NCBI GenBank assembly: GCA_946481275.1
Contig: CAMLMV010000064.1
Coordinates: 1-27,314, forward strand
DNA: 27,314 nucleotides
From: an uncultured Massilia sp.
GTDB taxonomy: Bacteria > Pseudomonadota > Gammaproteobacteria > Burkholderiales > Burkholderiaceae
Direction of reading: 5' to 3'
Position numbers and translations under genes: made by a program. Positions 4,143 through 21,978 of this stretch are shown one piece after another. The notes beneath the pieces are model-generated. The model was not told the origin of the DNA, did not search any database, and saw only the letters and a program-made list of their open reading frames with translations. The first letter of the stretch is position 1. Each line of letters opens with the position of its first letter.

Positions 4143-4949
4143 ATGTCGAAAGTTCAGCGCAGGAATAACGTCCGGGTGGCCGGCACCGGCCCGGCGACGA
4201 TGGTGTTTGCCCACGGCTTCGGCTGCGACCAGACCATGTGGCGGTTCCTGGCGCCGGCCTATGAGGATCGCTTCCGCACGATCGCGTTCGACCTGGTCGG
4301 CAGCGGTGGTTCCGACCTGTCCGCGTACGACCGCGACAAGTACGGCACCCTGCACGGCTACGCGGACGACCTGATCGAAATCGTCGACGAATGCGCGACC
4401 GGTCCCGTCATCTTCGTCGGCCATTCCGTCAGCACGATGATCGGCCTGCTGGCCACGATCAAGGCGCCGGAAAAATTCGTCGCGCAGGTCATGGTGGGCC
4501 CGTCGCCCTGCTACATCAACGACGGCGACTACATCGGCGGGTTCAGCCGGGACGACATCGACGAGCTGCTCGAGACAATGGACGCCAACTACCTCGGCTG
4601 GTCCAGCAGCCTGGCGCCCGCGATCATGGGCGTGCCCGACCGTCCCGAACTGCGCGCGGAGCTCACGGAGAGCTTCTGCCGCAACGATCCCGAGATCGCC
4701 AAGCACTTCGCCCGCGTGACGTTCCTGTCCGACCACCGCGCGGACGTGCCCCACTCGACCGTGCCGGCGCTGATCCTGCAATGCAGCGACGACCTCGTGG
4801 CGCCCCGTGCCGTCGGGGACTTCCTGCACCGGCACCTGCCGGACAGCGTCCTGCACGTCATCGAGAACGTCGGCCACTGCCCCCACATGAGCGCGCCCAC
4901 GGAAAGCTCGCGCGCCATCGACAACTTCCTCGCGCACGCCCTGCGCTGA
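4143..4949 (+). CDS. RsbQ-like alpha/beta hydrolase (partner of the PAS kinase)
   Basis: A 268-residue cytoplasmic alpha/beta hydrolase without signal peptide, matching the RsbQ/KAI2 type in length and layout. The oxyanion region is HGFGCDQTMWR. The catalytic triad reads Ser95 in VGHSVSTMIG, Asp217 in QCSDDLVAP and His245 in ENVGHCPHM. The segment FDLVGSGGSDLSAY after strand 4 is also typical of RsbQ. In Bacillus subtilis, RsbQ hydrolyses or binds an unknown small hydrophobic ligand and signals through the PAS domain of the phosphatase RsbP. Here the next gene, starting six bases after this stop, encodes a PAS-histidine kinase, which supports an equivalent sensing role (inference). ATG 4143 was chosen because it starts the conserved region; no clear ribosome-binding site precedes it. 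Confidence 0.87.
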   Translation: MSKVQRRNNVRVAGTGPATMVFAHGFGCDQTMWRFLAPAYEDRFRTIAFDLVGSGGSDLSAYDRDKYGTLHGYADDLIEIVDECATGPVIFVGHSVSTMIGLLATIKAPEKFVAQVMVGPSPCYINDGDYIGGFSRDDIDELLETMDANYLGWSSSLAPAIMGVPDRPELRAELTESFCRNDPEIAKHFARVTFLSDHRADVPHSTVPALILQCSDDLVAPRAVGDFLHRHLPDSVLHVIENVGHCPHMSAPTESSRAIDNFLAHALR

Positions 4950-4954
4950 CATCC

Positions 4955-6514
4955 GTGCCGACCGCGCCGTCCGGCGACATCCTGTTCGACCACGCCGCCT
5001 GCGCGCTGCTGCTGACGGCGGCGGACGGCGTGATCCTGAAGGCGAACAGCATGGCGTGCACGTGGCTCGGCTATGCGGAGGAGGAACTCGTCGGCAAGGT
5101 GCGCATGCAGGACCTGTTGCCGGTCGGCGCCCGCCTGTTCTACCACACGCATTGCCAGCCGATCCTGCAGGTGCAGGGCTCCGTGGCCGAAATCCAGGTC
5201 GACCTGCGCAACAAGCGCCAGGAGCGCATCCCCGTGCTGATCAACATCAGCCGCCGCCAGGAAGCGGACGGCATGATCGACCACTGGGCCCTGTTCAAGG
5301 CATCCGACCGGCGTGCCTACGAGCGCGAACTGCTGGCGGCCCGCAAGGCGGCGGAAGCGGCGCTGGACGCGCGCCGCAGCGCCGAGGCGGAACTGAAGAA
5401 ACTGAATGCGCAGCTGTCGGCCGCGGACCGGCGCAAGGACGAATTCCTCGCGACGCTGTCGCATGAACTGCGCAATCCGCTCGCGCCGATGCGCAGCGCG
5501 CTCGACGTCCTCAAGCTGAAGTTCGGCCAGGGCACGGACAACCGCCTGCTGCAGGCGTTCGACCGGCAGCTGCGCCACATGACGCGCCTCGTCGACGACC
5601 TGATGGAAGTCTCGCGCATCACGCAGGGACGCATGCAGCTGCAGCGCGCGCCGGTGGAACTGTCGGCCCTCGTGCACGGCGCGGCGCACGACCTCGCCGC
5701 GACGATGGAGGCGGCGCGTCACACGCTGCGCGTGTCCATCGCCGAGCCGCCCGTCATCGTGGACGGCGATGCGACGCGGCTCGCGCAGGTCGTCATCAAC
5801 CTGCTCACCAACGCGGCCAAGTACACCCCGGAAGGCGGCACGATCGAACTGCGCCTGTCGTGCAACGACGGCACGGCCGAGATCAGCGTGCGCGACAACG
5901 GCATCGGCCTGCCCGCGTCGGCCCTCGCCACCGTCTTCGACATGTTCTCGCAACTGGAACCTGCGCTGGAGCGCTCGAAAGGCGGCCTCGGGATCGGGCT
6001 GGCGCTCGTACGCGGCATCGTCGAACTGCACGGCGGCAGCGTGCATGCGGACAGCCCGGGACCGGGCCTCGGCAGCACGTTCACGATCCGGCTGCCGCTG
6101 GCGCAAGGCAGCGTGTGCGCCCCCTCTTCACCGGCGCCGGCCGGCACGGCGGCGCCGGCCCAGCTGCGCGTCCTCGTCGTCGACGACAACGAGGATGCCG
6201 CCGAGACGCTGGCGATGACGCTGGAACTGCATGGCTGCGAGGTGAGGACGGCGGCGACGGCGACCCGCGCGCTGGAGATGCTGCCCGGCTTTGCGCCGGC
6301 CGTGGCCCTGCTCGACATCGGCCTGCCGGACATGAACGGCTACGAACTGGCGCGCCGGATGCGCCAGCTGCCCGCGGGGGCGGGCATCACGCTGGTTGCG
6401 ACGACCGGCTGGGGCCAGCAGAAGGACCGCGAGCGGGCGTTCGCGGCCGGGTTCGATCATCACCTCACCAAGCCGATCGATTTCGACCTGCTGCGGTCGT
6501 ATTTACCCCGTTAG
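4955..6514 (+). CDS. PAS-domain hybrid histidine kinase with C-terminal receiver
   Basis: A 519-residue soluble kinase starting with GTG six bases after the hydrolase stop; no ATG is available before the PAS domain. Order of domains: PAS (about 8-118, with LFYHTHCQPILQVQGSVAEI and IPVLINISRR), a coiled-coil Ala/Glu/Arg linker (about 118-158), the HisKA domain with phospho-acceptor His170 in LSHELRNPLAP, and HATPase_c with NLLTNAAKYTPEGG (N box), DNGIGLP (G1) and GGLGIGLALVRGIVELHGG (G2). A receiver domain from about residue 404 has acidic Asp410/Asp411, phospho-acceptor Asp454 in LLDIGLPDMNGYE, and Lys506 in LTKPID. There are no transmembrane segments, so the signal is sensed in the cytoplasm, probably through the neighbouring hydrolase. 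No separate DNA-binding output lies nearby. The final codon overlaps the stop of the opposing M61 gene. Confidence 0.93.
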   Translation: MPTAPSGDILFDHAACALLLTAADGVILKANSMACTWLGYAEEELVGKVRMQDLLPVGARLFYHTHCQPILQVQGSVAEIQVDLRNKRQERIPVLINISRRQEADGMIDHWALFKASDRRAYERELLAARKAAEAALDARRSAEAELKKLNAQLSAADRRKDEFLATLSHELRNPLAPMRSALDVLKLKFGQGTDNRLLQAFDRQLRHMTRLVDDLMEVSRITQGRMQLQRAPVELSALVHGAAHDLAATMEAARHTLRVSIAEPPVIVDGDATRLAQVVINLLTNAAKYTPEGGTIELRLSCNDGTAEISVRDNGIGLPASALATVFDMFSQLEPALERSKGGLGIGLALVRGIVELHGGSVHADSPGPGLGSTFTIRLPLAQGSVCAPSSPAPAGTAAPAQLRVLVVDDNEDAAETLAMTLELHGCEVRTAATATRALEMLPGFAPAVALLDIGLPDMNGYELARRMRQLPAGAGITLVATTGWGQQKDRERAFAAGFDHHLTKPIDFDLLRSYLPR

Positions 6515-8331
6515 CTCGCGCTCGGCCGCTTTACCACCGGCCCCTTGCGCGTGCCCGGCGCCACCGAGATCTGCACGCACGGCACGCGGTCGCCCTGCAG
6601 GGTGACGTCGAACGCCATCAGCTCGTCGCGCCGGAACGCGTGCACGGTTACCGTGTCGCCCACGCGGTAGCGCGCGAACAGCTGGTCCAGGTTGGACGGA
6701 TTGCCGTTCACGCGCAGGTTATCCACGGCGATCAGGACGTCGCCGGCCGACAGGCCCGCCTGGTGCGCCGCGCCGCCTTCGTGCACCTGCGTCAGCTTGA
6801 CGCCGGCCGCGTCGCGGCCGATGCCCGCGTCCAGCGACGGCCTGGCGTTCTTGCGTTCTTCCGTCACCTTCACGCTGAACGGCGCGTACAGCTTGGCCAG
6901 CGGGATGTCTTCCGTGCCGCGGATGTAGCGGTCGAAGATCGACTTCAACCGCACGCCGCTCGCTTCGTCGAACAGGCTTTCGACCTCCTGCTCCGTCACG
7001 CCGCGTGCGCCACCTTTGTAGAAATCGCGGCCATAGCGGTCCCACAGCGCGAGCATGATGTCGTCCAGCGACTTCGCGCCTTCCGTCTTCGCACGGATCG
7101 TCAGGTCGAACGCGAGGCCGACCAGCGAACCCTTGGTGTAATAGCTGATGATGGCGTTCGGCGCGTTCTCGTCCTGGCGGTAGTACTTGCTCCAGGCGTC
7201 GAAGCTGGAATCGGCGATGCTCTGCTTCGTGCGGCCCGTGCCGCGCAGGACGCTGCCGACGGTCTTGCCGAGCAGCTTGAGGTACGTGGCCTCGCTGATG
7301 ATCCCGCTGCGCACGAGCATCAGGTCGTCGTAATAGCTGGTGAAGCCCTCGAACAGCCAGAGAAGCGGCGTGTAGTTCTCGACCTGCAGGTCGTACGGCG
7401 CGAACACGGCCGGCTTGATGCGCTTGACGTTCCAGGTGTGGAAGTATTCGTGGCTGCACAGGCCCAGGAACTTGATGTAACCCTCGTTCGGCTCGGCCGT
7501 CTTCGGTGCGGCCGTCGACGGCAGGTCGGTGCGCGAGCAGATCAGCGCCGTCGACGCGCGGTGTTCCAGGCCGCCGTAGCCGTCGCCGACGACCATCGTC
7601 AGGAACACGTAGCGGTCCATCGGCGCCTTCTTCGTCTTCGGCTCGAAGAACGCGATCTGGGTTTCGCAGATGGCTTTCAGGTCTTTTTCGAGACGCGCCA
7701 TATCGAGGTTCGGCACGCGGCCCGTGATGACGATGTCGTGGCGCACGCCGTGCGCCGTAAAACCGCCCAGCGCGAAATCGCCCATCTCGACGGGGTGGTC
7801 GATCAGTTCATCGTAGTCGCCCGCGGCATAGGTGCCGAAGCCGTAGCGCTTTGCACCCGCTTCCGGCAGCGCCGTGGCCACGCGCCACGTGCGGGCGGCC
7901 GGGTCGGCGGGGCGCTGGATGTCGACCTGGTGCGGCCGCGTCTCCTGGCCCACCACGCGCAGGAACACGCTCGTGCCGTTGAAGAAGCCGTGGGTCTGGT
8001 CCAGGTGGGCGGCGCGCACCGACAGGTCCCACGCATACACCTCGTAATGCAGCGTCAGCGGCCCGGCGACGGGCGCGGCCTGCCAGCTATGCTTGTCCAG
8101 CTTCGCCAGGCGGACAGCCGCACCGCCCGCTTCGGCGCGGATGCGCACGATGTTGCGGGCGAACTCGCGGATCATGTAGCTGCCCGGAATCCAGGCCGGC
8201 AGCGCGAACACCTGCCCGTCCGGATGCGGCTCCGCCACGGTCACGGTGACGTTGAACAGGTGCCCGGCCAGGTCTTTCGGGACGATGGTGTACTGGATGG
8301 CCGGCGGCTGCTTCTGGGGTGCTTTTTTCAT
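6511..8331 (-). CDS. M61-family metallopeptidase (glycyl aminopeptidase type) with PDZ domain
   Basis: A 606-residue zinc peptidase. The N-terminal beta domain (about 10-200) contains the family segment ALPAWIPGSYMIREFARNI. The zinc site is His294-Glu295-x-x-His298 in CSHEYFHTWNVKRIKP, with the third ligand Glu328 in LLWLFEGFTSYYDD. A PDZ domain occupies about 500-585 (DAAGVKLTQVHEGGAAHQAGLSAGD is its opening). M61 enzymes cleave N-terminal Gly or Ala residues. No signal peptide is visible: the N-terminus is Lys/Pro/Gln-rich. I used ATG 8331 rather than the upstream start at 8355, because the residues between match nothing. The gene converges on the kinase gene and the two stop codons overlap within TTAG. 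Confidence 0.93.
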   Translation of the reverse strand: MKKAPQKQPPAIQYTIVPKDLAGHLFNVTVTVAEPHPDGQVFALPAWIPGSYMIREFARNIVRIRAEAGGAAVRLAKLDKHSWQAAPVAGPLTLHYEVYAWDLSVRAAHLDQTHGFFNGTSVFLRVVGQETRPHQVDIQRPADPAARTWRVATALPEAGAKRYGFGTYAAGDYDELIDHPVEMGDFALGGFTAHGVRHDIVITGRVPNLDMARLEKDLKAICETQIAFFEPKTKKAPMDRYVFLTMVVGDGYGGLEHRASTALICSRTDLPSTAAPKTAEPNEGYIKFLGLCSHEYFHTWNVKRIKPAVFAPYDLQVENYTPLLWLFEGFTSYYDDLMLVRSGIISEATYLKLLGKTVGSVLRGTGRTKQSIADSSFDAWSKYYRQDENAPNAIISYYTKGSLVGLAFDLTIRAKTEGAKSLDDIMLALWDRYGRDFYKGGARGVTEQEVESLFDEASGVRLKSIFDRYIRGTEDIPLAKLYAPFSVKVTEERKNARPSLDAGIGRDAAGVKLTQVHEGGAAHQAGLSAGDVLIAVDNLRVNGNPSNLDQLFARYRVGDTVTVHAFRRDELMAFDVTLQGDRVPCVQISVAPGTRKGPVVKRPSAS

Positions 8332-8409: not shown

Positions 8410-9006
8410 TCACGCTCCCGTCAGGTCGGCCGGCAGGTCGATGTCGCGAAAAATCCCGGGGTCGTCGACCGGTACTTCGGTCACGGGAAACGTCTGCAAC
8501 AGACGTCGAGCACCTGCGTCACCGCTTAACGCCAGCAGCGCATCCAGGTGGACGGCGCCGAAACCGACCGGATTGCCCCGCCGCTCCTTCATGACTGGCG
8601 CCGCGATGCCCGCGCCGGCCGCCAGCGCGTCCGCGAGGCGGCGCAGCGTGTCCGGCTCCACGAAGGGCATGTCGCCCAGTGCCACGAGCCAGGCCTGCGG
8701 CTGCAGTGCCAGCGAATGGCGGATGGCGTGCGTGAGCGAGGCCGCCATGCCGCTGTCGGCATCCGGGCACACGGTCACGTCGCACCCGAGCGCGGCCAGC
8801 CGCGCGGCCACCCCGGCGTCAAGCGGCGGCACGACGGCGACGACCTGCGGGACAACGGCCAGCAGCTTGCGCGCGCTGGCCACGACGACGGGTTCGCCGG
8901 CCAGCGGCTGCAGCAGCTTGTTGCGCTGCCCGGCCGGATCGAAGCGGCGCCCCCGGCCGGCGGCCAGCAGAAGGCCGACAACATGCGCGACCGGGGACAC
9001 GCTCAC
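8410..9006 (-). CDS. MobA-like nucleotidyltransferase (molybdenum cofactor cytidylyl/guanylyltransferase type)
   Basis: A 198-residue protein with the nucleotidyltransferase fold of MobA/MocA. It has the nucleotide loop GLLLAAGRGRRFDP near the N-terminus, a Lys-Leu-Leu segment after it, the metal-binding GDMPFVEPDTL near the middle, and RRGNPVGFG, which is typical of MocA and YgfJ. MocA transfers CMP to molybdopterin to form the cofactor used by xanthine-dehydrogenase-type enzymes. Start GTG 9006 overlaps the stop of the iorB-like gene (GTGA), indicating translational coupling; a second GTG lies six bases on. The coupling strongly suggests that it makes or loads the cofactor for the upstream IorAB-like enzyme. 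That link is an inference. Confidence 0.85.
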   Translation of the reverse strand: MSVSPVAHVVGLLLAAGRGRRFDPAGQRNKLLQPLAGEPVVVASARKLLAVVPQVVAVVPPLDAGVAARLAALGCDVTVCPDADSGMAASLTHAIRHSLALQPQAWLVALGDMPFVEPDTLRRLADALAAGAGIAAPVMKERRGNPVGFGAVHLDALLALSGDAGARRLLQTFPVTEVPVDDPGIFRDIDLPADLTGA

Positions 9007-11210
9007 GCCGCCGCCAGGTCGAACGGCAGCCTGCGCAGGCGCTTGCCCGTCAGCTTGAACATGGCATTGGCCAGCGCCGGCGCCAGCGGCGGCAGGCCCG
9101 GTTCGCCCATGCCCGTCGGCGGATCCTGCGACGGCACGATGAACACATCGACCTGCGGCATGTCGTTCATGCGCGCCACCGTGTAGTCGCCGAAGTTCTG
9201 CTGCTCGACGACGCCGTCCTTCAGGGTGATGCGCGCACCAGGCAACGTCGTGCCGAGGCCCATCAGCGCCGCGCCCTGCACTTGCGCTTCGATGGACATC
9301 GGGTTGACGGGCAGGTTGCAGTGCACGGCGGCCGTGACCTTGTGCACTTTCGGGCTGCCGTCGACGATGGACGCCTCGACGACGTAGGCGACGACCGTGT
9401 TGAACGATTCGTGCAGCGCCACGCCGACCGCATGCCCTTTCGGCAGCGTCTTCCTGCCGTAGCCGGACTTCGCCACGGCGAGGTCCAGCGCCGCGTGATG
9501 GCGCGCGTGCTTCGCGTCGATCAGCTTCTTGCGGTACGCGACCGGGTCCTGGCCGGCCGCATGGGCCGCCTCGTCGATCAGCGTCTCCATCACGAACGCC
9601 GTGTGCGTGGAACCGACGGAACGCCACCACAGCACGGGCACGTTGGCTTTCACCGCATGGGCCGTCAGGTTCAGCGGCACGTCGTACGGCTCGCCCATGC
9701 CTTCGACCATCGTGGCGTCGACGCCGTTCTTGACCATCATCGGTTCGAACGGGGTACCGCTGATGATCGACTGGCCGACGATCGTGTGGTCCCACGCGAC
9801 GATGTTGCCGCCGGCGTCCAGGCCGATGTCGGCGCGGTGCACGTGCGACGGACGGTAGTAGCCGCCGCGGATGTCGTCTTCGCGGCTCCAGATCAGTTTC
9901 ACGGGGCCCGCATGGCCCGCGGCCTTATAGGCCTTGGCGATGTTGACGGCTTCCACGATGAAGTCCGACGTCGGCACGGCGCGCCGGCCGAAGCCGCCGC
10001 CCGCCATCATCGTGTTCAGGGTCACCTGCTCGGGCTTCAGGCCGGCCGTCGCGGCGGCGGCCGCCTGGTCGATGGTCTGGAATTGCGAGCCGACCCACAA
10101 GGTGCAGGCGTCATCCTTGAGGTCGACCGTGCAGTTGATCGGTTCCATCGGCGCGTGCGCCAGGTACGGGAATTCGTAGACGGCCGAGATTTTCTTGCTG
10201 GCGCCCGCGAGCTTGGACGTGTCGGCCTTGCGGGCGACGGCGCCCGGCGTCTTCGCCAGTTCCGCGAACTGCGCCAGCTGCTTGCCGCTGTCGACTTTTT
10301 CGACGGCGCTCGTGTCCCACTCGATGGCGAGCAGGTCGCGCGCCTGTTTCGCCGGCCAGTAACCGTCGGCGACGACGGCCACGCCGCGGCCGCCCCGGTC
10401 CACCGGGATCTCCAGCACGGCGACCACGCCGCGCACGGCCTTGGCCTTCGCTGCATCGAACTTCGCCACCTTCGCGCCGAACACGGGCGGGTGCGCGACG
10501 ACGGCGACCTTGGTGCCGGCCGGCTTGACGTCCAGGCCGAACTGCTGGCGGCCCGTCGACTTGGCGCGGGCGTCCAGGCGCGGCATCGGCTTGCCGATGT
10601 AGCGGAACGCCTTCTGGTCCTTCAGCGTGACGGCCTCCGGCACCGGCAGGGCCATCGCCGCTTCGGCCAGCGCGCCATAGGTCGCTTTCTTGCCCGCCGG
10701 GCCGTAGACGACGCCTTTCGCCGTGCGGCACTGCGACGGCTCCACCTTCCACGCCTGCGCGGCGGCCGCAACCAGCATCGCGCGGGCGCGGGCGCCCACT
10801 TCGCGGTATTGCGTGAACGAGTGGGCGATGGTGCCCGAGCCGCCCGTCATCTGGATGCCGAAGGCCGGATCCTTGTACACGTCGGCGGCCGGCGCGAGCT
10901 CGCTGCGCACCTGGCTCCAGTCGGCATCGAGTTCGTCCGCGATCATCATCGGCAGCGCCGTGTGCACGCCCTGGCCGAATTCGAGACGGTTGACCAGCAC
11001 GGTCACCGTGTTGTCCGGCGCCACGCGCAGGAAGGCGTTCGGGGCGTAGACGGTGGGCTTGGCGGCATCCGCGGCGCGGGCGAAGCGGCCGCCGGCCGGC
11101 AGCACGAAGCCCAGCACGAGGCCACCCGTGGCGAGCGTGCCGGCTTTCAGGAAGCCACGGCGGGATACACCACCGGCGGGAGCGACATTCTTGATCTGTT
11201 CGAATAGCAT
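9003..11210 (-). CDS. Molybdopterin-binding subunit of an IorB/aldehyde-oxidase-type hydroxylase
   Basis: A 735-residue large subunit of the xanthine dehydrogenase superfamily, in the subgroup with a Tat signal (isoquinoline 1-oxidoreductase beta type). SRRGFLKAGTLATGGLVLG at about residues 16-34 is a Tat motif with its hydrophobic stretch, so the enzyme is predicted to be exported folded to the periplasm. Cofactor landmarks: NRLEFGQGVHTALPMMIADEL, GGSGTIAHSFTQYREVGA, LAHAPMEPINCTVDL, GGGFGRRAVPTSDF and VLWWRSVGSTHTAF. Glu703 in PTGMGEPGLPPLAPALANA is the expected catalytic base. The ATG 11210 is ten bases after the iorA-like stop. The substrate (N-heterocycle or aldehyde) cannot be read from sequence, and no cytochrome c subunit accompanies it here. 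Confidence 0.92.
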   Translation of the reverse strand: MLFEQIKNVAPAGGVSRRGFLKAGTLATGGLVLGFVLPAGGRFARAADAAKPTVYAPNAFLRVAPDNTVTVLVNRLEFGQGVHTALPMMIADELDADWSQVRSELAPAADVYKDPAFGIQMTGGSGTIAHSFTQYREVGARARAMLVAAAAQAWKVEPSQCRTAKGVVYGPAGKKATYGALAEAAMALPVPEAVTLKDQKAFRYIGKPMPRLDARAKSTGRQQFGLDVKPAGTKVAVVAHPPVFGAKVAKFDAAKAKAVRGVVAVLEIPVDRGGRGVAVVADGYWPAKQARDLLAIEWDTSAVEKVDSGKQLAQFAELAKTPGAVARKADTSKLAGASKKISAVYEFPYLAHAPMEPINCTVDLKDDACTLWVGSQFQTIDQAAAAATAGLKPEQVTLNTMMAGGGFGRRAVPTSDFIVEAVNIAKAYKAAGHAGPVKLIWSREDDIRGGYYRPSHVHRADIGLDAGGNIVAWDHTIVGQSIISGTPFEPMMVKNGVDATMVEGMGEPYDVPLNLTAHAVKANVPVLWWRSVGSTHTAFVMETLIDEAAHAAGQDPVAYRKKLIDAKHARHHAALDLAVAKSGYGRKTLPKGHAVGVALHESFNTVVAYVVEASIVDGSPKVHKVTAAVHCNLPVNPMSIEAQVQGAALMGLGTTLPGARITLKDGVVEQQNFGDYTVARMNDMPQVDVFIVPSQDPPTGMGEPGLPPLAPALANAMFKLTGKRLRRLPFDLAAA

Positions 11211-11220
11211 GCGGACCTCC

Positions 11221-11679
11221 TTACGCGAGCGTCCTGGCGGCATCCTTGATGGCCGCGCGGATGCGTTGGTAGGTGCCGCAGCGGCAGATGTTGCCGCTCA
11301 TGGCGTTGTCGATGTCGGTGTCGGTCGGCTTTTTATTCACGCGCAGCAGGGCCGTGGCGCTCATCACCTGGCCGCTCTGGCAGTAGCCGCACTGCGGGAC
11401 GTCGTGCTTGACCCAGGCGTCCTGCACGGCCTTGCCGACCTTGTCGGTTTCCATCGCTTCGATGGTCGTGATCTTGTGGCCCGCGGCGGCGGAGATCGGC
11501 GTGACGCAGGAACGGATCGCCTGGCCGTCCAGGTGCACGGTGCAGGCGCCGCACAGGGCGGCGCCGCAGCCGAACTTGGTGCCCGTCATGTTCAGGTTGT
11601 CGCGCAGCGTCCACAGGATGGGCGTGGAGGGATCGGCGTCGACCTGGACGTCGCGCCCGTTGATGTTCAGTGTGAGCAT
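11221..11679 (-). CDS. [2Fe-2S] small subunit of the IorAB-type hydroxylase
   Basis: A 152-residue ferredoxin-type subunit with two [2Fe-2S] clusters. The plant-type cluster ligands are Cys38, Cys43, Cys46 and Cys58 ([18 protein letters not shown] onwards). The second cluster has Cys97 and Cys100 (QCGYCQSGQ) and Cys132 and Cys134 ([13 protein letters not shown]). Length and spacing match IorA, which passes electrons from the molybdenum site to an external acceptor. It has no signal peptide, so it probably crosses the membrane bound to the Tat-tagged large subunit. It is first in the three-gene order small subunit, large subunit, nucleotidyltransferase. Its promoter must lie in the 63 bases after the dsbC-like gene, next to that gene's terminator. 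Confidence 0.94.
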
Positions 11680-14375: not shown

Positions 14376-15911
14376 CTACAGCTTGCCGACGCCGGCCGCG
14401 GCCGGTACCGCAGTGGCGAGATTGCCCGTACCATCCACCGAATAGCTGTAATAGCTGGCCGGCGTCGCCGACGGCGTCCCTGCCGGATTGCTGGCCGACG
14501 ACCAGGGCGTGGACGTGACGGTCACCAGTGAATTGGCGCTGTGGGCCGTCGCCCCCAGGTTCACGGGCGCGCCGTTGAGCAGGTTGCCGCTGTCAAAGAT
14601 ATAGGGCGAGCAACGCACCGTGCTCATGCCCGACAGGGCCGCGCAATGGGTCAGCGCACTGCCGGACGAGACCGACGCACCGATCGTGTCGCCGGCCGTC
14701 GCCCCGCCGCTGATGTTGAAGACATTGTTCTCGACGTAGAGTTTCGAGCCCTGCCCCGACGTCAGCCCCACCATCCAGTTATACAACGTGACGCTGTTGC
14801 TGCCGGCGAAGTAATTGTTGTACAGGTGGACCATGCCATAGCGCACGCGCGGCTTGCGCTGCACGAGGTTCTGGAAGTAATTGTGGTGGAACGTGGTCTT
14901 CAGCACGCCCGGATTTTCCGCCGTCAGGCTGGCCGTATCCGTGCCGCCCATCAGCATCGACTTGTCGTGGTCGTGCAGGTGGTTGTACGACACGGTGATG
15001 AGGTTGGCCGACTTGGTGATGTCGAGCAGGCCGTCGTGGTGCTGCACGTGGTAGAGGTCGCCGTCATACGGGGCGGCCCACACGGACGGGAATTGGTCGT
15101 CGGTGCGCGCGCCGTCGGAGAACGTGCAGTGGTCGATCCACACGTGGGTGGCGTACTGGATCGACACGGTGTCGTAGTTCGAGTTCCAGCGCCCGCCGGA
15201 ATCGGTCGGGTCCCACGCCGGGAAGAAGTCGAACGCGTCTTCGAACGCCACGTTGCGGATCACGACGTTGTCGACCGGCGCGCTCGACGTGCCGCTGATC
15301 ATCAGGGTGCCGTGGATGATCTTCGCGGTCGAGTCGTTGCCGATGATCGACGTATTCGACGGCACGGTCAGGACTATGGTTTTCTTCATCTGGTTGCTGG
15401 CGCAGGCGCGGGCCGCCTCGACCTTGTCCGTCGACGGCGGCACCTTCGCGTAGGGTGGCTTGTAGGCGGCCAGGTAGTCGCTCCAGATCTTGTCGAACGT
15501 GGTGTAGCCGTAGCCGGCGCAGGTGCTGCTGGCCGCGTTGGCATAGGTCACGTAGTTGTTGGCCGTCAATTCGGTACCGGCCGCGTTCTGGTTCAGGCTG
15601 ATGGTGCCCGAGATGTAGATGATCTTCCTGCTGTTGTCGAGCGTGCCGCTGAACGTGCCGTCAGGCTTGATCGTGGCCGTGTTGCCGTACAAGGCCTGGA
15701 TCAGGCCGGCACGCGTCGACACGGTATGGATCCTGGCCGCCGCCGCGCCGTTGCCGCCGGTGGTGCCGGTCCCGCCCAGGTTGTTGGTGCCGGTGGCTGC
15801 CCAGCCGGTTGCGCCGAGCGACGAGATTTGCGCATGGACGCCCGCGCTGGTGCCGGCCAACACGGCCGCAATACAAAATGCCTGGCATAACTGCTTTTTG
15901 GAAATCGTCAT
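14376..15911 (-). CDS. Secreted pectate lyase, polysaccharide lyase family 1
   Basis: A 511-residue exported enzyme that cuts de-esterified pectin (polygalacturonate) by calcium-dependent beta-elimination. A signal peptide ends around residue 27 (GVHA, then QIS). The parallel beta-helix carries the family-1 signature: VWIDHCTFSDG from 257, calcium-ligand candidates Asp247, Asp293 and Asp298, and the catalytic R-x-P-x-x-R at 352-357 (QRKPRVRYG). An insertion at about 130-175 with two Cys (131, 170) and a Ser/Gly-rich C-terminal part (about 415-511) make it longer than the minimal family. No carbohydrate-binding module or PEP-CTERM tail is seen. A promoter with a TGGTCAGACCA operator lies about 130-180 bases upstream, suggesting control by pectin breakdown products. 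Confidence 0.93.
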   Translation of the reverse strand: MTISKKQLCQAFCIAAVLAGTSAGVHAQISSLGATGWAATGTNNLGGTGTTGGNGAAAARIHTVSTRAGLIQALYGNTATIKPDGTFSGTLDNSRKIIYISGTISLNQNAAGTELTANNYVTYANAASSTCAGYGYTTFDKIWSDYLAAYKPPYAKVPPSTDKVEAARACASNQMKKTIVLTVPSNTSIIGNDSTAKIIHGTLMISGTSSAPVDNVVIRNVAFEDAFDFFPAWDPTDSGGRWNSNYDTVSIQYATHVWIDHCTFSDGARTDDQFPSVWAAPYDGDLYHVQHHDGLLDITKSANLITVSYNHLHDHDKSMLMGGTDTASLTAENPGVLKTTFHHNYFQNLVQRKPRVRYGMVHLYNNYFAGSNSVTLYNWMVGLTSGQGSKLYVENNVFNISGGATAGDTIGASVSSGSALTHCAALSGMSTVRCSPYIFDSGNLLNGAPVNLGATAHSANSLVTVTSTPWSSASNPAGTPSATPASYYSYSVDGTGNLATAVPAAAGVGKL

Positions 15912-16039
15912 GTCTTCTCCGGAATGGTGAACTCTGATGTACCCAAGAACAGCTGCACAGCGCCCGTCCTCGCCCCTACCGCTATCTGGTCGGTCCGGTT
16001 TTTACAAAACTGGCGTAGGAATCGCTGATTTGTTGAAAG

Positions 16040-16050
16040 TGGTCAGACCA
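16040..16050. promoter_or_regulatory. Palindromic operator TGGTCAGACCA at the pectate lyase promoter
   Basis: A perfect 5+1+5 palindrome. It matches the core recognised by FadR-subfamily GntR regulators (TGGTC-N-GACCA). It would sit at about +7 to +17 of the predicted transcript, where a bound repressor blocks polymerase. GntR regulators of this subfamily often control uronate use, so induction by pectin-derived sugar acids is a plausible inference. No such regulator gene lies in the window. Confidence 0.55.
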
Positions 16051-16063
16051 ATTCAACCGATGC

Positions 16064-16092
16064 AGTATGACCGCATTTGTGATGTGTTGCAA
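16064..16092 (-). promoter_or_regulatory. Candidate sigma-70 promoter of the pectate lyase
   Basis: On the minus strand, TTGCAA (16092-16087) is followed after exactly 17 bases by CATACT (16069-16064). Each hexamer matches the consensus at four of six positions. Transcription would start near 16057, leaving a leader of about 146 bases. The adjoining palindrome at +7 to +17 strengthens the case. Confidence 0.5.
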
Positions 16093-16132
16093 TTTAATCT
16101 TGCGAGTTGGAGCAGCAATTTGGAGAACCATA

Positions 16133-16167
16133 ATAAAAAACGGATTCACGTTGCACGTGAATCCGTT
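16133..16167 (-). terminator. Intrinsic terminator of the PEP-CTERM gene
   Basis: A perfect 13-bp stem (16139-16151 with 16155-16167) and a 3-base loop; read on the minus strand it is followed by a run of T. It lies about 75 bases after the PEP-CTERM stop codon. Confidence 0.87.
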
Positions 16168-16183
16168 CTAGCTCCTGGCGCCA

Positions 16184-16219
16184 GCGGGTCAATGCCTTGA
16201 GCGACAGGCATTGCCCCGC
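16184..16219 (-). repeat. Second hairpin in the 3' region of the PEP-CTERM transcript
   Basis: GCGGGTCAATGCCT (16184-16197) pairs with AGGCATTGCCCCGC (16206-16219) at 13 of 14 positions around an 8-base loop. It has no T run and stands between the stop codon and the terminator. It could protect the mRNA 3' end (inference). Confidence 0.6.
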
Positions 16220-16242
16220 AGGTGGCGTTTATTCATGCCAGT

Positions 16243-17034
16243 TTATTTGGCCTGCTTGCGACGGCGCGAACGCAGCATTGCGCCCGCCCCCAGCAGCATC
16301 AGCGCGGCCGAAGCCGGTTCCGGGACATTAACCGGCGGAATAACGGCACCGAAACCGTCGATATAGGCATAACCCGTGTGGCCGGTCGGCTCGCAATCCG
16401 CCGCCAGAATCGACAGCGTGAAATCGTGGCCCGACAGCGACGAATCGATTGCGAGCTGTTCGATTTGCCATGCCGAGGTATAAAACAGATCGCCGTTGAC
16501 GGAGAAACGGCTGTCGACGCCGCCGCCGCCGTCGCCGGCATTGTAGACACGATTGATCAGGACCGTGCCCGTCGTGTCGTCGGTCAGCGTGATCAGCAGT
16601 TCGGCCGATTGGTCGTCGGAGTGGCCGCCATTTTCCAGCACGGCTTTCCAGGCGAAGAAGATGTTCGCTTCCGTGTAATTCGTCACCTTCTGGCTGAGGA
16701 CCGACGCATTACCGCCGAACGTGGTGTCTTCCGTGCGATAAGAATACTGGCCCGAATAGACGGTCGAACCCAGCAATCCGCCCAGCAGCGGATCGGACGT
16801 GCCGGCGGCGTTGATGGCCGAGCGGGTGGCCGGCCCGGTGTACAGGCTGCCGCCCGGCAGGAACGTCGCCGGCGTCAGGCTTGGATTGTCGACTCCGCTC
16901 CGATTCCCTTCGCCAGTCGTCCAGCCATTTGCATTGCCAGCTTCAAAACCGCCATTGATAAAGGCGCCGGCGTGTGCGGTGCCGGTAATGGCGGTGAATG
17001 CGAGGGCAGCGGCCAGCGCGAATTTTAATTTCAT
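16243..17034 (-). CDS. PEP-CTERM protein (exosortase substrate)
   Basis: A 263-residue secreted protein. A signal peptide (KLKFALAAALAFTAITGTAHA) is cleaved near residue 22. The body has the pattern of a surface beta-sandwich: GAFINGGFEAGNANGWT at the start, many Thr, Gly and Ser, and few Cys. The C-terminus is a complete exosortase sorting signal: Val-Pro-Glu-Pro at 237-240, a hydrophobic segment ASAALMLLGAGAML and a basic tail RSRRRKQAK. Such proteins are processed by exosortase EpsH and are tied to exopolysaccharide and floc or biofilm formation. Start ATG 17034 has AAAGGA eight bases upstream; the frame upstream of it reads through the promoter. A sigma-54 promoter lies about 60 bases upstream. 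The function of the mature domain is unknown. Confidence 0.93.
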   Translation of the reverse strand: MKLKFALAAALAFTAITGTAHAGAFINGGFEAGNANGWTTGEGNRSGVDNPSLTPATFLPGGSLYTGPATRSAINAAGTSDPLLGGLLGSTVYSGQYSYRTEDTTFGGNASVLSQKVTNYTEANIFFAWKAVLENGGHSDDQSAELLITLTDDTTGTVLINRVYNAGDGGGGVDSRFSVNGDLFYTSAWQIEQLAIDSSLSGHDFTLSILAADCEPTGHTGYAYIDGFGAVIPPVNVPEPASAALMLLGAGAMLRSRRRKQAK

Positions 17035-17095
17035 CTCAGTGGTCCTTTCAAGTGAATAAGTGTAATAGGTGCGCGTAAAGCACTGCGACACCTTA

Positions 17096-17110
17096 GCAAT
17101 TCCCGTGCCA
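17096..17110 (-). promoter_or_regulatory. Sigma-54 (RpoN) promoter of the PEP-CTERM gene
   Basis: Minus-strand TGGCACGGGAATTGC matches the -24/-12 consensus TGGCAC-N5-TTGC at every fixed position. The GC of the -12 element lies at 17097-17096, so transcription should start near 17084, about 50 bases before the ATG. PEP-CTERM genes are known in some betaproteobacteria to depend on RpoN with the PrsK/PrsR two-component system, which fits well. Confidence 0.88.
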
Positions 17111-17317
17111 ATCACTTATCTATTTGAAAGAAAATGGATTTTTTAAAATTCTACCGATATAGATCCTGTAACTGTCAAATACTCCGACATTTAAATCGGG
17201 TAAATCGGTGATGGCATATAAAACATATGTACTCCTAATATCCGATACGCTTTCATATTATGTACATATTCTTATTTAACCCCGGAAAATATCGATTATT
17301 TTAATCAACTCTTGTAC
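17111..17317. other. AT-rich region upstream of the sigma-54 promoter, possible enhancer site
   Basis: This stretch is strikingly AT-rich beside the GC-rich coding regions and holds no credible gene. TGTC (17173-17176) and GACA (17186-17189) form an inverted repeat about 90-105 bases before the predicted start. That is a usual distance for the activator of a sigma-54 promoter. The short repeats AAATCGGG and AAATCGGT follow at once. The activator-site call is speculative. Confidence 0.3.
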
Positions 17318-18247
17318 TCAACCGGCACGCCATAATTGCAATATCTCTTCCGCAATAACATCAGGAAATTCCTCCTGAAAAAATAGTTTTCCTTTTGGAA
17401 CTCGGCGTATGCCCTGCGAGCGCGGGAAAACACGGTCAAGATAAGCGGCATCCGCCATGGGAAAAATGATGTCGCTGGCGCCCCATACCATCCGCACCGG
17501 CACCGTACTGCGTTTGAGCGCCGTCTCGATGCCCGCCAGCGGATTCGGCGCCAGCGCGTTGTGGAACGCGTGGTACTGCCTGCGCCGCAACGGCGTGCTC
17601 ACCAGCGGTGCCACGTAATACTCGATGATGTCGTCCGTGAGCAGTGCAGGATCGTGGTACACGGCCGTGCCGAACGTCGCGCGCGCCAGGTTTCCGTCGG
17701 TCAGCCATGTCGCCGTATCGTCGGCCAGCGTGCCGGCACGGGCCATGTCGAGCACCGGCTGGATCAGCGGCGGCGGGCTGTTGGGTTCCGTGTCGCAGTT
17801 CGTCAGCAGCATCGAGCGCACCCGCGCCGGATAGCGGACCAGGAACAGCTGGGCGACCGCGCCGCCGCTGTCGGCAGCGACGATGTCGGCCTGGCCGACG
17901 CCCAGCGCATCGAGCAGCGCCGCCAGCATCGCCACCTGGGCGGCGGGTGCTACCGACTGGTCCTCGGGAACCTGCGAATAGCCGAGGCCCATGAAATCGG
18001 GGGCAATGCAGCGCCGGTGCGGCGCCAGGCGGTCGATCGCCCCGCGCCACTGGAAGCCGTTGAGCGGAGCGCCGTGCAGGAACAGCGCCGCCGCGCCCCT
18101 GCCCCGCTCGACGCAGGCGATGCGGCCGCACGGCAGGTCGACGTAGCGCCGCGCGCGGCGATAGCGTTCCACCTCCGTCTGCGCCGCCTGCGCACGGCCG
18201 GCCACGACGGCTGCCGCGGTCACATACAAGAAATCCCTGCGTTTCAT
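17318..18247 (-). CDS. Tat-type exported alpha/beta hydrolase lacking the usual catalytic His
   Basis: A 309-residue protein. The N-terminus MKRRDFLYVTAAAVVAGRAQA has a twin-Arg R-R-x-F-L core and an Ala-rich stretch, so Tat export is likely. The hydrolase core has HGAPLNGFQW (oxyanion, from 58), PDFMGLGYSQ, a nucleophile elbow AADSGG with Ser127, and Asp259 in WGASDIIFP. Where the catalytic His normally stands, just before the final helix, the sequence reads VPKGKLFFQEEFPD with Lys287-Leu288 instead. It may be inactive as a hydrolase or use another mechanism. ATG 18247 has AAGGAGA upstream. A much longer upstream extension of the frame is a GC-driven shadow of the AraC gene. Probably controlled by the divergent AraC regulator. 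Confidence 0.82.
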   Translation of the reverse strand: MKRRDFLYVTAAAVVAGRAQAAQTEVERYRRARRYVDLPCGRIACVERGRGAAALFLHGAPLNGFQWRGAIDRLAPHRRCIAPDFMGLGYSQVPEDQSVAPAAQVAMLAALLDALGVGQADIVAADSGGAVAQLFLVRYPARVRSMLLTNCDTEPNSPPPLIQPVLDMARAGTLADDTATWLTDGNLARATFGTAVYHDPALLTDDIIEYYVAPLVSTPLRRRQYHAFHNALAPNPLAGIETALKRSTVPVRMVWGASDIIFPMADAAYLDRVFPRSQGIRRVPKGKLFFQEEFPDVIAEEILQLWRAG

Positions 18248-18384
18248 GGTCGACTCTCCTTCGATGCGTTGGACATGGAAGGATGCTAGCGGCGCGTGCC
18301 GGTCCCGGCGCGCACCGGCGGCCGGCCGCGGACACGAACGGATGATTTCCTTGTACATTGGCGAGACGCGTACCGGAGGATGCG

Positions 18385-19215
18385 ATGACCGACCGACCCT
18401 CTTGCTATCCCAGCCCATCGACGGCCCCGCTGCCGCTCCTCGACGTCCTGACGTCGCCGGTGCCGCCGGGCCGGTTCGATTCGCCCGTGGACGAGCGCCA
18501 CGTCCTGTGCCTCCACCTGGGCGCGCCGGTGCCGGTGTCGTACCGGGCCGGCAAGGCCGAGCGGCAGGGCGTGCGGTTGCATGGACAGTTCTGCGTCGTG
18601 CCCGGTGGTTCCAGCACCCGCTGGACCCTGTCCCGGCCGGCCACCTCGCTGCTGCTGCGGCTCGCGCCCGCGCACCTGCGCGCCACGGCCGACGACATGG
18701 GACTGGGCGCGCGCACCTTCGACCTTGCGCCGGCGATCCACGTCCGCGATCCGCAGATCGAACGCATCGGCTGGATGATGCAGGCCGAGGACCATGCCGC
18801 CCACCCCGGCGGCAGGCTGTTCGCCGACAGTCTCGCGTCGGCGCTGGCCGTGCGCCTCGTCGCGCTGCAGTCGCCTTCGACGCCCGCACCGGCACGGGCG
18901 CTGCCCGCCTGGCGCCTGCGCCACGTCATCGACTATGTCGACGCCCACCTGGACCAGGACCTGACGCTCGCCGAACTGGCCGCGGTCGCGGGGTTCAGCC
19001 CGTCGCATTTCAAGGCCCTGTTCAGACAGGCGACCGGTACGCCGGTCCACCGGTTCGTGCTCGAGCGGCGCGTGGAACGGGCGCGCCTGCGCCTGCTCGA
19101 GGGGCGGCACAGCATCACGGAGATCGCGCTCGACTGCGGGTTCGCACATCCGAGCCACATGGCCCGCTGGATGCGCCGGCTGCTGGGGCTCAGCCCCTCG
19201 CAGATCCGCGCTTGA
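18385..19215 (+). CDS. AraC-family transcriptional regulator
   Basis: A 276-residue regulator. The N-terminal half (about 1-170) resembles the cupin-like sensor of AraC proteins, including an arginine-rich segment and a Pro-Gly-Gly turn (CVVPGGSSTRWTLSRP). The C-terminal part (about 178-276) carries the two helix-turn-helix motifs: LTLAELAAVAGFSPSHFKALFRQATG, then the linker PVHRFVLERRVERARLRLLE, then SITEIALDCGFAHPSHMARWMRRLLGLSP. ATG 18385 has GGAGGA five bases upstream. The gene diverges from the exported hydrolase across 137 bases, the standard arrangement of an AraC regulator and its target. It ends directly against the stop of the convergent carboxylesterase. The effector is unknown. 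Confidence 0.9.
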   Translation: MTDRPSCYPSPSTAPLPLLDVLTSPVPPGRFDSPVDERHVLCLHLGAPVPVSYRAGKAERQGVRLHGQFCVVPGGSSTRWTLSRPATSLLLRLAPAHLRATADDMGLGARTFDLAPAIHVRDPQIERIGWMMQAEDHAAHPGGRLFADSLASALAVRLVALQSPSTPAPARALPAWRLRHVIDYVDAHLDQDLTLAELAAVAGFSPSHFKALFRQATGTPVHRFVLERRVERARLRLLEGRHSITEIALDCGFAHPSHMARWMRRLLGLSPSQIRA

Positions 19216-20748
19216 TCAGCGCTTGGGCGGCTGCCCGAACAGCGAAAAATCCGGCAGCTTGCCGCGCGCCTGCAGGTCGGCCGCATCGCCGATGCGCAGG
19301 ATGGTCGCCGGCCTGCCGTCGAACGCGGGCCAGTCGGGCAAGCCCTTGCCGTTCGGCGATCCCGTGCGCGCGAAGCTTGCCCAGGTGTCGGCCAGGCGCG
19401 CGGCCAGCTGCCGGTCATATGCGGACCACGGCCGCGGATCCTGGCCGAGATGGTCGAACACGTACTGGATCTCGGCGCCATGCCCCGCCCCGCAGCCATA
19501 GCCGCACGGTGTCAGGGGTTCGGTCGGCCGGTGCGTGAAATAGTAGAGGTAAGGCCTGGCCTTGCCGTACTGCGCCTGCAACGACGCCCAGTACCACGTG
19601 CGCCAGCCCCACCAGTCGGTCGTGAGCTTGTCGATCGACGCCCTGGCTTCGGCATCCGTCGCCCCTGGATACGCGGCCAGCACGGCGGCGGACGGCGCAT
19701 GGCCCAGCAGCTTCGCCACGAGCGCCTTGTGGGTGGCGGCCGTGAACTTGTCCGTGCCGAGGATTTCCGGCGCCAGGTCCTTGCCCTCTTCCGCATTCCA
19801 GCCTGCGAGCAGGGGCACGTCGTTGTGGCGGTGGTTACGGTACGTCGTCGTCAGGTCTTCGCGCAGCAAATGGCCGTCGACGATGGGGTGCGGCGCCCAC
19901 GCCGGTTTCTGCAGCGCGGCGGCGGGCAGCGCACGCAGGTCCGCGAGGCTCTTCGCGCCGACCGATCCGGTGAACGCCACGCCGGTCTTTTCCGCGGCCG
20001 CGCGGTCGAACAGGGCGTTCTCGCTGGCGTCGATCGGCATGGCGAAATTGCCGCTTTGCGAGATCGCGCGCTGGAACAACCCTTTCGCCAGCGGTGACGC
20101 GACGAGCACCGCGACGGATTCGCCGCCGGCGGATTCGCCCATGATCGTGACGCGCGCCGGGTCGCCGCCGAAGGCCGCGATGTTCTCCCGCACCCAGCGC
20201 AGCGCCGCGACCTGGTCTTCCATGCCCTGGTTGCCCGACGCCTTGTCCGGCGACTCCGCCGTGAGCTCGGGATGGGCGAAGAAGCCGAAGATGCCGAGAC
20301 GGTAGTTGATGGTGACGACGATGACGCCGCGCCGCGCCAGGTTGGCGCCATCGTAACCGGGCTGGGCGCCCGTGCCGCCGTAGTAGCCGCCGCCGTGGAT
20401 CCAGACGATCACGGGGAGTTTCTGCTTCTGCGTCTGCGCGGGGGCCCACACGTTCAGGTACAGGCAGTCTTCGCTTTTCGGATCCGGCACCCATTGCGCC
20501 GTCTGGGCGCAGGCCGGCGCATAGGCGTTGGCGGACTTCACGCCCTGCCACGGCACGACCGGCTGCGGCGCGCGCCAGCGCAGTTGGCCGACGGGCGGCG
20601 CCGCGAACGGCACGCCCTTGAATGTGTTCACGCCATCGGCCGCCGTGCCGGCGATCCTTCCTCCCGTGACCTGCACCGGGTCCGTCACCTGGGCCGCCTG
20701 GGCCGCGCAAGCCAGCAGGCATCCGGCGGCTACCGCCACACGTTTCAT
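19216..20748 (-). CDS. Secreted type-B carboxylesterase
   Basis: A 510-residue esterase of the cholinesterase/para-nitrobenzyl esterase family, with a signal peptide (about 1-19, cleavage near AQA). Landmarks: FKGVPFAAPPVGQLRWRAPQ, SEDCLYLNVWAP, the oxyanion HGGGYYGG (118-125), and the nucleophile Ser206 in the G-E-S-A-G-G elbow. Glu321 in NAEEGKD and His423 in GAGHGAEIQYVF complete the triad. Cys80/Cys95 are spaced like the family's first disulfide. Length is normal. ATG 20748 has a GGAGA site upstream. It shares a 200-base upstream region, which contains the TTATCG-type boxes, with the divergent exported hydrolase and ohr, so the two directions may be co-regulated. Substrate unknown. Confidence 0.92.
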   Translation of the reverse strand: MKRVAVAAGCLLACAAQAAQVTDPVQVTGGRIAGTAADGVNTFKGVPFAAPPVGQLRWRAPQPVVPWQGVKSANAYAPACAQTAQWVPDPKSEDCLYLNVWAPAQTQKQKLPVIVWIHGGGYYGGTGAQPGYDGANLARRGVIVVTINYRLGIFGFFAHPELTAESPDKASGNQGMEDQVAALRWVRENIAAFGGDPARVTIMGESAGGESVAVLVASPLAKGLFQRAISQSGNFAMPIDASENALFDRAAAEKTGVAFTGSVGAKSLADLRALPAAALQKPAWAPHPIVDGHLLREDLTTTYRNHRHNDVPLLAGWNAEEGKDLAPEILGTDKFTAATHKALVAKLLGHAPSAAVLAAYPGATDAEARASIDKLTTDWWGWRTWYWASLQAQYGKARPYLYYFTHRPTEPLTPCGYGCGAGHGAEIQYVFDHLGQDPRPWSAYDRQLAARLADTWASFARTGSPNGKGLPDWPAFDGRPATILRIGDAADLQARGKLPDFSLFGQPPKR

Positions 20749-20823
20749 GGTGTCTCCTCATTATTGTCGAAATGGCATTCTAGCCGGGCAGGCTCTTCGG
20801 ACATACCGCCTTGTCGAAAATAA

Positions 20824-20902
20824 TTATCGAAATAATGGTTTTCGCGCTTGCAAAGCGCGGAAAGCTCGGATACAGTTATCGACATAATGATTATCGCGAT
20901 AA
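20824..20902. promoter_or_regulatory. Array of three TTATCG-NN-ATAA operator boxes
   Basis: Three 12-base boxes match TTATCG-NN-ATAA: 20824-20835, 20876-20887 and 20891-20902. The last, TTATCGCGATAA, is a perfect palindrome. Boxes two and three are 15 bases apart and cover the end of the -10 element and the predicted start of the promoter listed next. Degenerate relatives occur at 20811-20823 and near 20764. This looks like binding of a dimeric repressor, of MarR or TetR type by size; no such gene is in the window. Confidence 0.6.
20848..20876 (+). promoter_or_regulatory. Sigma-70 promoter of the exported hydrolase-ohr unit
   Basis: TTGCAA (20848-20853) and TACAGT (20871-20876) are 17 bases apart, with transcription predicted near 20883. 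The -35 lies in a perfect inverted repeat GCGCTT-GCA-AAGCGC (20844-20858). Since TTGCAA is its own complement, it might also serve a leftward promoter for the carboxylesterase, with GATAAT 19 bases on; that is weaker. Confidence 0.6.
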
Positions 20903-20950
20903 GCAATTTACGACAGCAGATCACCTGAACCATTTACCGGAGGAATCGAA

Positions 20951-21943
20951 ATGAACCAGTCCATCGCCCGCACGCTTCGCAACGTCTTCGGCGCAGCCGC
21001 CCTCACCGTCGCCGCCCTCGGCCCGGCCCACGCACAAACGGCCGACGCCTTCTCGTCCGTCAAGCAGATCAACGCGGGCGTGCTGAACGTCGGCTACGTC
21101 GACGCGGGTCCGGCCAACGGCCCCGTCGTGATCCTGCTGCACGGCTGGCCGTACGACATCCACAGCTATGTCGACGTCGTGCCGCTGCTGACGAAGGCCG
21201 GCTACCGCGTGATCGTGCCGCACCTGCGCGGCTACGGCACGACCCGCTTCCTCGATCCGAAGGCCGTGCGCAACGGCGAACCGGCCGCGCTGGCGCAGGA
21301 CGTCGTCGACCTGATGGATGCGCTCAAGATCGACAAGGCGATCCTGGCCGGCTACGACTGGGGCGCGCGCAGCGCCGACATCGTGGCCGCGCTCTGGCCG
21401 GAACGCGTAAAAGGGCTGGTGTCCGTGAGCGGCTACCTGATCGGCAGCCAGGAAAGCGGCAAGCAGCCGCTGCCGCCGGCCGCCGAGCTGCAATGGTGGT
21501 ACCAGTTCTACTTCGCCACCGACCGCGGCGCCGCCGGCTACGCGAAGAACCACCACGATTTCGCCAAGCTGATCTGGAAAACCGCGTCGCCGCAATGGCA
21601 GTTCGACGACCGCACATTCGACCGCAGCGCCGCGTCGCTGGAGAACCCGGACCACGCCGCCATCACGATCTTCAACTACCGCTGGCGCCTCGGCCTCGTC
21701 CGGGGCGAAGCGAAGTACGACAAACTGGAACGGCGCCTGGCGACCTTCCCGGCCATCACCGTGCCGACGATCACGCTGGAAGGCGACGCCAACGGCGCCC
21801 CGCACCCGGAACCGGCCGCGTACGCCAGGCGCTTCACCGGCAAGTACAAGCATGAACTCATCAAGGGCGGCATCGGGCACAACCTGCCGCAGGAGGCACC
21901 GCGCGCGTTCGCCGATGCCGTCATCGCCGTCGACCATCTGTAA
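20951..21943 (+). CDS. Exported alpha/beta hydrolase with Asp nucleophile (epoxide hydrolase/dehalogenase type)
   Basis: A 330-residue protein with a signal peptide ending near residue 28 (PAHA, then QT). The mature part is an alpha/beta hydrolase: oxyanion HGWPYDIHSY (from 64), nucleophile Asp136 in AGYDWGAR, acid Asp279 in LEGDANGAP and His310 in GGIGHNLPQEAP. An Asp nucleophile and the HGWP motif place it with epoxide hydrolases and related fluoroacetate or haloalkane dehalogenases. Tyr184, Tyr187 (WWYQFYFA) and Tyr243 (NYRW) are candidates for the cap-domain Tyr pair that activates an epoxide. GGAGG lies six bases before ATG 20951. Periplasmic location is unusual for the family. It is followed after 35 bases by ohr, suggesting a link with peroxide or electrophile stress. 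Confidence 0.87.
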   Translation: MNQSIARTLRNVFGAAALTVAALGPAHAQTADAFSSVKQINAGVLNVGYVDAGPANGPVVILLHGWPYDIHSYVDVVPLLTKAGYRVIVPHLRGYGTTRFLDPKAVRNGEPAALAQDVVDLMDALKIDKAILAGYDWGARSADIVAALWPERVKGLVSVSGYLIGSQESGKQPLPPAAELQWWYQFYFATDRGAAGYAKNHHDFAKLIWKTASPQWQFDDRTFDRSAASLENPDHAAITIFNYRWRLGLVRGEAKYDKLERRLATFPAITVPTITLEGDANGAPHPEPAAYARRFTGKYKHELIKGGIGHNLPQEAPRAFADAVIAVDHL

Positions 21944-21978
21944 TCCGAAGTTACTCACCTAAACGAAAGGTATACATC

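Follow-up and report, generated by a model that had tools for sequence, protein, structure and literature searches.

The question raised by this locus is whether a small α/β hydrolase and the histidine kinase encoded directly behind it work together as one sensor and, if so, through which surfaces. The window, as we call the whole analysed stretch of 27,314 nucleotides, carries the two genes with the following features, all on the forward (+) strand:

4143–4949, +: RsbQ-type α/β hydrolase, 268 residues, ATG start (1wom match; Abhydrolase_6)
4425–4427, 4791–4793 and 4875–4877, +: codons of the catalytic triad Ser95, Asp217 and His245 (alignment to 1wom)
4542–4730, +: hydrolase lid, residues 134–196, helices aT1–aT3, the proposed PAS-docking face
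4950–4954, +: intergenic gap of five bases (from the sequence; short gaps also in relatives)
4955–6514, +: PAS hybrid histidine kinase, 519 residues, GTG start
4979–5323, +: RsbP-type PAS domain, Fa motif R-x-F-x-x-x-H-x-x-P (PAS_9, E = 5.8e-7; alignment A1)
5435–5629, +: HisKA dimerisation and phospho-acceptor domain (PF00512, E = 8.7e-15)
5462–5464, +: phospho-acceptor His170 (motif position)
5765–6103, +: HATPase_c catalytic domain (PF02518, E = 1.1e-28)
6170–6499, +: C-terminal receiver domain (Response_reg, PF00072, E = 1.7e-21)
6314–6316, +: receiver Asp454 (motif position)

A PDB profile search with the hydrolase returned Bacillus subtilis RsbQ (PDB code 1wom) as the best match (E = 3.1e-91), followed by Olei00960 (E = 3e-71) and then by chains of the plant KAI2 family (E = 4e-62 and weaker). 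The plant receptors are thus not its closest solved relatives in this search. Homology with B. subtilis RsbQ extends over 262 residues, and Pfam assigns the protein to Abhydrolase_6 (E = 6.9e-24). No NCBIfam equivalog was found, as all 23 of 23 matches fell well under their own cut-offs. The complete triad described in the initial annotation (Ser95, Asp217, His245) aligns with the identical triad of 1wom, and is invariant in 111 PAS-paired RsbQs (window included) and in 32 members of a PAS-free group described below. The RsbQ marker residues F27, V97, F136 and F196 of the B. subtilis protein correspond to F26, V96, F134 and F194. With the GTG start, the gap between the two genes comes to five bases rather than the six originally counted.

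In the kinase, nothing precedes the PAS domain, which spans approximately residues 9–123 and is followed by a charged linker at about residues 124–160. The most hydrophobic 19-residue segment (mean 1.65, starting at residue 9) lies within the PAS domain, and both proteins are predicted to be cytoplasmic. Pfam detected PAS, HisKA, HATPase_c and Response_reg but no other input domain, in line with the earlier description of a kinase with one PAS domain as its sole input. Its His, ATPase and receiver motifs are all intact. The attached receiver and the lack of a DNA-binding regulator nearby were likewise borne out, by PF00072 and by a Pfam scan of 28 of the window's open reading frames that found no DNA-binding domain; the partner in phosphotransfer is presumably encoded elsewhere in the genome. 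A promoter and terminator scan gave a single terminator-like site, within the range of shuffled sequence, and nothing resembling a sigma-70 site. When the PAS domain was used for the PDB profile search, the matches were weak and were to other PAS proteins.

This arrangement has a published precedent. Nadezhdin, Brody and Price (2011; PMC3183031, cited here and below from the part of its text that was available) described 45 adjacent RsbQ and RsbP-PAS homologues with a phosphatase, a kinase (three with a receiver) or a cyclase as output, and with PAS and output separated by a coiled coil of 21 residues or more in 36 of the 45. Like the window, these modules have an upstream RsbQ, an N-terminal RsbP-type PAS domain and an output behind a linker, and hybrid kinases are included. 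The same text provides two-hybrid as well as pull-down evidence for B. subtilis RsbQ and RsbP, names the B. subtilis module as the only one with a known target, and describes the cue as unknown. For modules of the kinase type, the literature searched here yielded neither a ligand nor an output partner nor an assay. In the window, RsbQ lies directly upstream, the PAS domain is N-terminal and the output is a histidine kinase. The nine PAS positions that distinguish the class (C10, L13, L48, Q53, F55, C56, Y59, E72 and P86 in B. subtilis; PMC3183031) correspond to C16, L19, L54, R60, F62, Y63, H66, E79 and P93. They were matched by spacing to the published numbers and consensus letters and by alignment A1 (24 RsbQ-linked PAS domains, window included), with a one-residue shift between L48 and Q53. 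As the match was made without aligning B. subtilis RsbP, and the available text leaves some consensus letters unplaced, we say that the window PAS appears to fit the RsbP-PAS class signature. The DIT motif is absent from the end of the domain, which reads ...ASDRRAYERE.

The window pair is very probably a sensing module of the RsbQ-PAS kind whose output is a hybrid histidine kinase. Its initial reading is borne out in part: conserved adjacency, co-occurrence and the PAS signature support a two-part sensor, for which a small hydrophobic molecule is a putative ligand. The reading is not new, since two-part sensing for kinases and hybrid kinases was already proposed in 2011 (PMC3183031). What the window adds is a hybrid-kinase member of the module in a soil-type genus. 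While hydrolase, triad and PAS class residues by position all resemble the B. subtilis RsbQ-RsbP system, the output there is a PPM phosphatase and here a histidine kinase with a receiver, which implies no sigma-B pathway. LuxP-LuxQ, an analogy drawn in PMC3183031, resembles the pair in that a separate small-molecule protein acts on the PAS domains of a hybrid kinase, but that system works in the periplasm.

If the two genes form a functional unit, they should recur side by side in other genomes, as was anticipated from the start, and this is what a survey showed. An RsbP-type PAS domain is encoded directly downstream and on the same strand at 111 of 149 distinct RsbQ places (110 by a coordinate rule, plus L123, whose RsbQ frame overruns its true end). 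These places were drawn from two loci, 100 chosen regions among the places listed and the best 80 of 405 loci, with duplicates and matches shorter than 180 residues dropped, and close relatives are over-represented among them. Kinase plus receiver is the usual output in the sampled pairs: 86 of 110 have it (one truncated where its contig ends), 21 have a kinase only, one a cyclase, and two are short or broken, with a Pfam check on seven. The corresponding figure in PMC3183031 is 3 of 45; our sample leans towards close relatives from Burkholderiales. The Pseudorhodoferax locus L211 encodes an RsbQ-linked PAS kinase (5786–7525, +) that ends in a GAF domain and gave no match to a receiver.

Among 392 genomes of the family, from lists compiled by hand, 131 have both RsbQ and a strong PAS match (not adjacent in every case), 21 RsbQ only, 4 PAS only and 236 neither. 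The resulting odds ratio is 368, for genomes that are related and hence not independent, at an RsbQ cut-off of E ≤ 1e-40 and a strong-PAS cut-off of about 1e-19 that was chosen after the scores were seen. Weaker PAS matches occur in 35 further family genomes, one of them with RsbQ. In a sample drawn from across the class, 3 of 369 genomes pass E = 1e-40 for RsbQ, including the family reference G001, so that RsbQ is rare and patchy outside the family. Chance adjacency was rejected, as the pairing goes far beyond chance. A broader alternative joins chance to hitchhiking within an operon, with the hydrolase as a housekeeping esterase and the kinase sensing something else through its PAS domain. 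We consider it very improbable: the pairing recurs across genera and families, two loci from metagenome-assembled genomes labelled Myxococcota among them, despite changing flanking genes, and the co-occurrence is strong. In its favour, some genomes have RsbQ without PAS (21 of the 152 RsbQ-bearing family genomes lack a strong match, one having a weak one), which indicates that the hydrolase can have another role, and co-folds of this pair gave no confident contact.

These co-folds, made as one continuous chain across the stop that separates the genes, returned pTM values of 0.73 (28 joined rows) and 0.65 (84 rows). Each domain folds, the PAS confidently and with a long Fa helix, whereas their relative placement is unsure and the lid is among the less confident parts. 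No confident contact between hydrolase and PAS emerged. The models are, however, single chains that contain neither linker nor dimer, and docking is therefore not excluded by them. A mean-field coupling analysis of 110 pairs (effective number 68, 396 columns) gave scattered top pairs, the alignment being too shallow. No natural RsbQ-PAS fusion was found among proteins of about 285–908 residues: the 120 matches listed, out of 205 in the PAS search, carry Pfam domains of kinases and none of a hydrolase. An AlphaFold2 model in print puts RsbQ between the PAS domains and the linkers.

How might the hydrolase act on the kinase? RsbQ would bind a small molecule in the pocket beneath its lid, and the lid helices would then dock with their outer face onto the PAS domains of the kinase dimer, at helix Fa and probably the linker. 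Docking would shift kinase activity through the linker, and phosphate would pass from His170 to Asp454 of the attached receiver and on to an unlinked partner. As an overall explanation, an RsbQ-PAS module on a hybrid kinase with a lid-PAS contact and an onward phosphorelay can be held with good confidence. PMC3183031 sets out two ways for such a module to signal and leaves both open, product delivery (Model 1) and ligand-gated contact (Model 2). The second, acting through the lid, is in our judgement the most likely mechanism, at about even chances. In B. subtilis, F55A in PAS helix Fa breaks RsbQ binding (PMC3183031). Under Model 1, the main rival, RsbQ is an enzyme that hands a product or cofactor to the PAS pocket, so that the PAS domain is the true sensor. 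The invariance of the triad in the 111 paired rows, the null effect that triad substitutions have in B. subtilis according to PMC3183031, and the confident PAS fold with its long Fa helix all speak for it. RsbQs for which no PAS was found retain the triad as well, so that triad retention by itself is no argument for product delivery, and we rate Model 1 as rather unlikely.

These PAS-free RsbQs, here called orphans, allow the proposed contact to be approached by comparison. In a quick, midpoint-rooted tree of 150 rows, 32 of the 38 orphans fall into one group (SH-aLRT 80), and the orphan state requires 6 changes against about 34 with shuffled labels. The group sits among paired RsbQs, mostly from Oxalobacteraceae, on weakly supported nesting branches (14–77), and its members have Ser, Asp and His at 100%. 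Searched at E ≤ 1e-6, no RsbP-PAS was found in the 16 genomes chosen for having PAS-free RsbQ only, nor in G024 or G121. Of the 28 genomes covered by the search, 6 have a PAS domain, all of them together with an RsbQ, adjacent to it in four (G022, G739, G782, G116) and elsewhere in two (G016, G564). In Massilia sp. ZL223 (L049) and Massilia sp. ST3 (L051), an orphan-group RsbQ lies about 110 bases upstream of a full RsbQ-PAS-kinase set, which suggests that the orphans arose by tandem duplication.

In the PAS-only genome G634, a reduced RsbQ, of which the two ends are left, lies just ahead of the PAS kinase (contig C62; L221, L227). The upstream RsbQ of the PAS kinase on G564:C35 (L218) is a weak 41-residue match, and that of G016:C31 (L216) amounts, by eye, to at most a few residues of the RsbQ start. 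Elsewhere, G016 has a full RsbQ whose own PAS match ends after about 24 codons. At 14 of 37 orphan loci, for example L064, L065 and L083, RsbQ is divergent to ORFs in the place of the L020 radical-SAM gene (82–1461, −; TIGR03916, putative DNA modification/repair radical SAM protein, E = 2e-161), and 12 other orphan loci have a different common neighbourhood. The underlying clustering mixes reading frames, and L020 is the sole locus typed.

When the 111 paired rows (window included, with L031 excluded from the paired group) were compared with the 32 grouped orphans, the separating positions included 156, 155, 144, 145, 135, 152, 175, 176, 148, 141, 172 and 179; a few, among them 6, 222 and 223, lie outside the lid. 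Of the 25 positions that separate the two sets best, 16 fall in the lid (residues 134–194 in this comparison), against 0–7 in 27 control comparisons among paired subclades, which are partly nested and not independent. By a loss-of-conservation score, 18 of 25 lie in the lid, against 1–11 in the controls, and the ratio of mean divergence between lid and rest is 1.93 for the orphans and 0.51–0.96 for the controls. The lid (here residues 134–196, with L031 and L123 excluded) accounts for 16% of the differences between paired RsbQs and 27% of those among the grouped orphans; when these orphans are compared with the closest paired relative, the share is 29%. Variation falls on one side of the lid helices, and L142, L143, W153, A158, P159, I161, L174 and F178 are nearly fixed. 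The signal appears to have a helix-like spacing, with periodicity peaks at 85–90 degrees. From these alignments, we read the lid signal as constraint lost on the outward face, and infer that the varying face of the lid helices may be the one that docks the PAS domain. The comparison names residues 145, 152, 155, 156, 175 and 179 as docking-surface candidates. A comparison of this kind between orphan and paired lids was not met in the open-access literature searched, parts of which were available only as partial text, and is the new element here.

This signal could instead reflect a change of ligand or of lid dynamics in a single orphan lineage rather than a loss of PAS docking, given that 32 of the 38 orphans form one group and that the pocket is altered too (F26 is Tyr in 41% and F134 in 22% of the grouped orphans). 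The independent orphans outside the group support docking through the lid in part. L100, L109, L111, L166 and L032 differ at T145 and S155 from the residues usual in paired RsbQs, as do 28 (T145) and 32 (S155) of the 32 grouped orphans. Orphan L166 shows a lid excess, with 0.36 of its differences in the lid, compared with a mean of 0.16 (5–95% range 0.11–0.25) in paired controls. L100 has little excess (0.24), L109 and L111 (0.17) and L046 (0.14) have none, and the distant orphan L032 retains G152 and C179, all of which favours the ligand or lid-dynamics account. L046 keeps T145 and S155, and its genome has an RsbP-type PAS elsewhere. Two further observations count against the lid reading: B. 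subtilis RsbQ carries Met and Thr where the window has residues 145 and 155, and the paired L031 also differs at both. Against a change of ligand or dynamics stand the almost fixed opposite face of the helices, F194, which is kept in all, and the changes at T145 and S155. We regard that account as possible, though improbable on balance. Our own proposal is that RsbQ docks PAS through the outer aT1–aT3 face, and that a Massilia/Duganella-type lineage lost its PAS kinase, probably after tandem duplication, whereupon this face was freed with the triad kept; we offer it tentatively, at somewhat less than even likelihood, the weak nesting branches having counted against it. If true, it would be a bacterial case of the partner loss that would come before rewiring of the sort found among plant receptors, with the orphans as a natural variant set for testing partner loss.

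The contact loop of Kaneko, residues 126–135 of B. subtilis RsbQ as told in the available text of PMC3183031, was considered as a mark of PAS coupling and rejected: it is largely kept in paired and orphan RsbQs alike and is thus no marker.

RsbQ is clearly kin to the plant strigolactone and karrikin receptors. KAI2 and D14 share fold and triad with the window hydrolase (ShHTL1, E = 4e-62), but their partner is an F-box protein where that of RsbQ is a PAS domain. Available portions of two papers on the rice proteins touch on the lid. In OsKAI2, lid residues E174 and N181 are modelled at the contact with D3, together with D30 and D51 outside the lid (PMC11350264). By numbering and the ShHTL1 alignment, OsKAI2 itself being unaligned, the two lid residues correspond to window E173, conserved in paired (95%) and orphan (97%) RsbQs, and R180, conserved in 98% of paired and 72% of orphan RsbQs. 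A quadruple alanine mutant of the modelled contacts increased D3 binding rather than decreasing it (PMC11350264), and the regions of rice D14 protected with D53, 103–124 and 204–225, are not the lid helices (PMC10858650); both findings speak against docking through the lid.

Around the pair, trp genes and a TonB-like gene lie upstream of RsbQ, and a convergent M61 peptidase gene lies downstream of the kinase. Parts of this gene order are retained in the eight nearest loci; in more distant ones, the flanking genes were mostly not found within the 8–11 kb compared. Further along the window, the region 8410–11679 (−) encodes molybdopterin-binding and 2Fe-2S proteins, which we take to be an isoquinoline/aldehyde-oxidoreductase-like enzyme, beside a MobA-like protein (8410–9795). 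The region 14376–21958 (−) encodes a pectate lyase, a PEP-CTERM protein, an α/β hydrolase-type protein and a carboxylesterase, and a hydrolase ORF lies at 20951–21943 (+).
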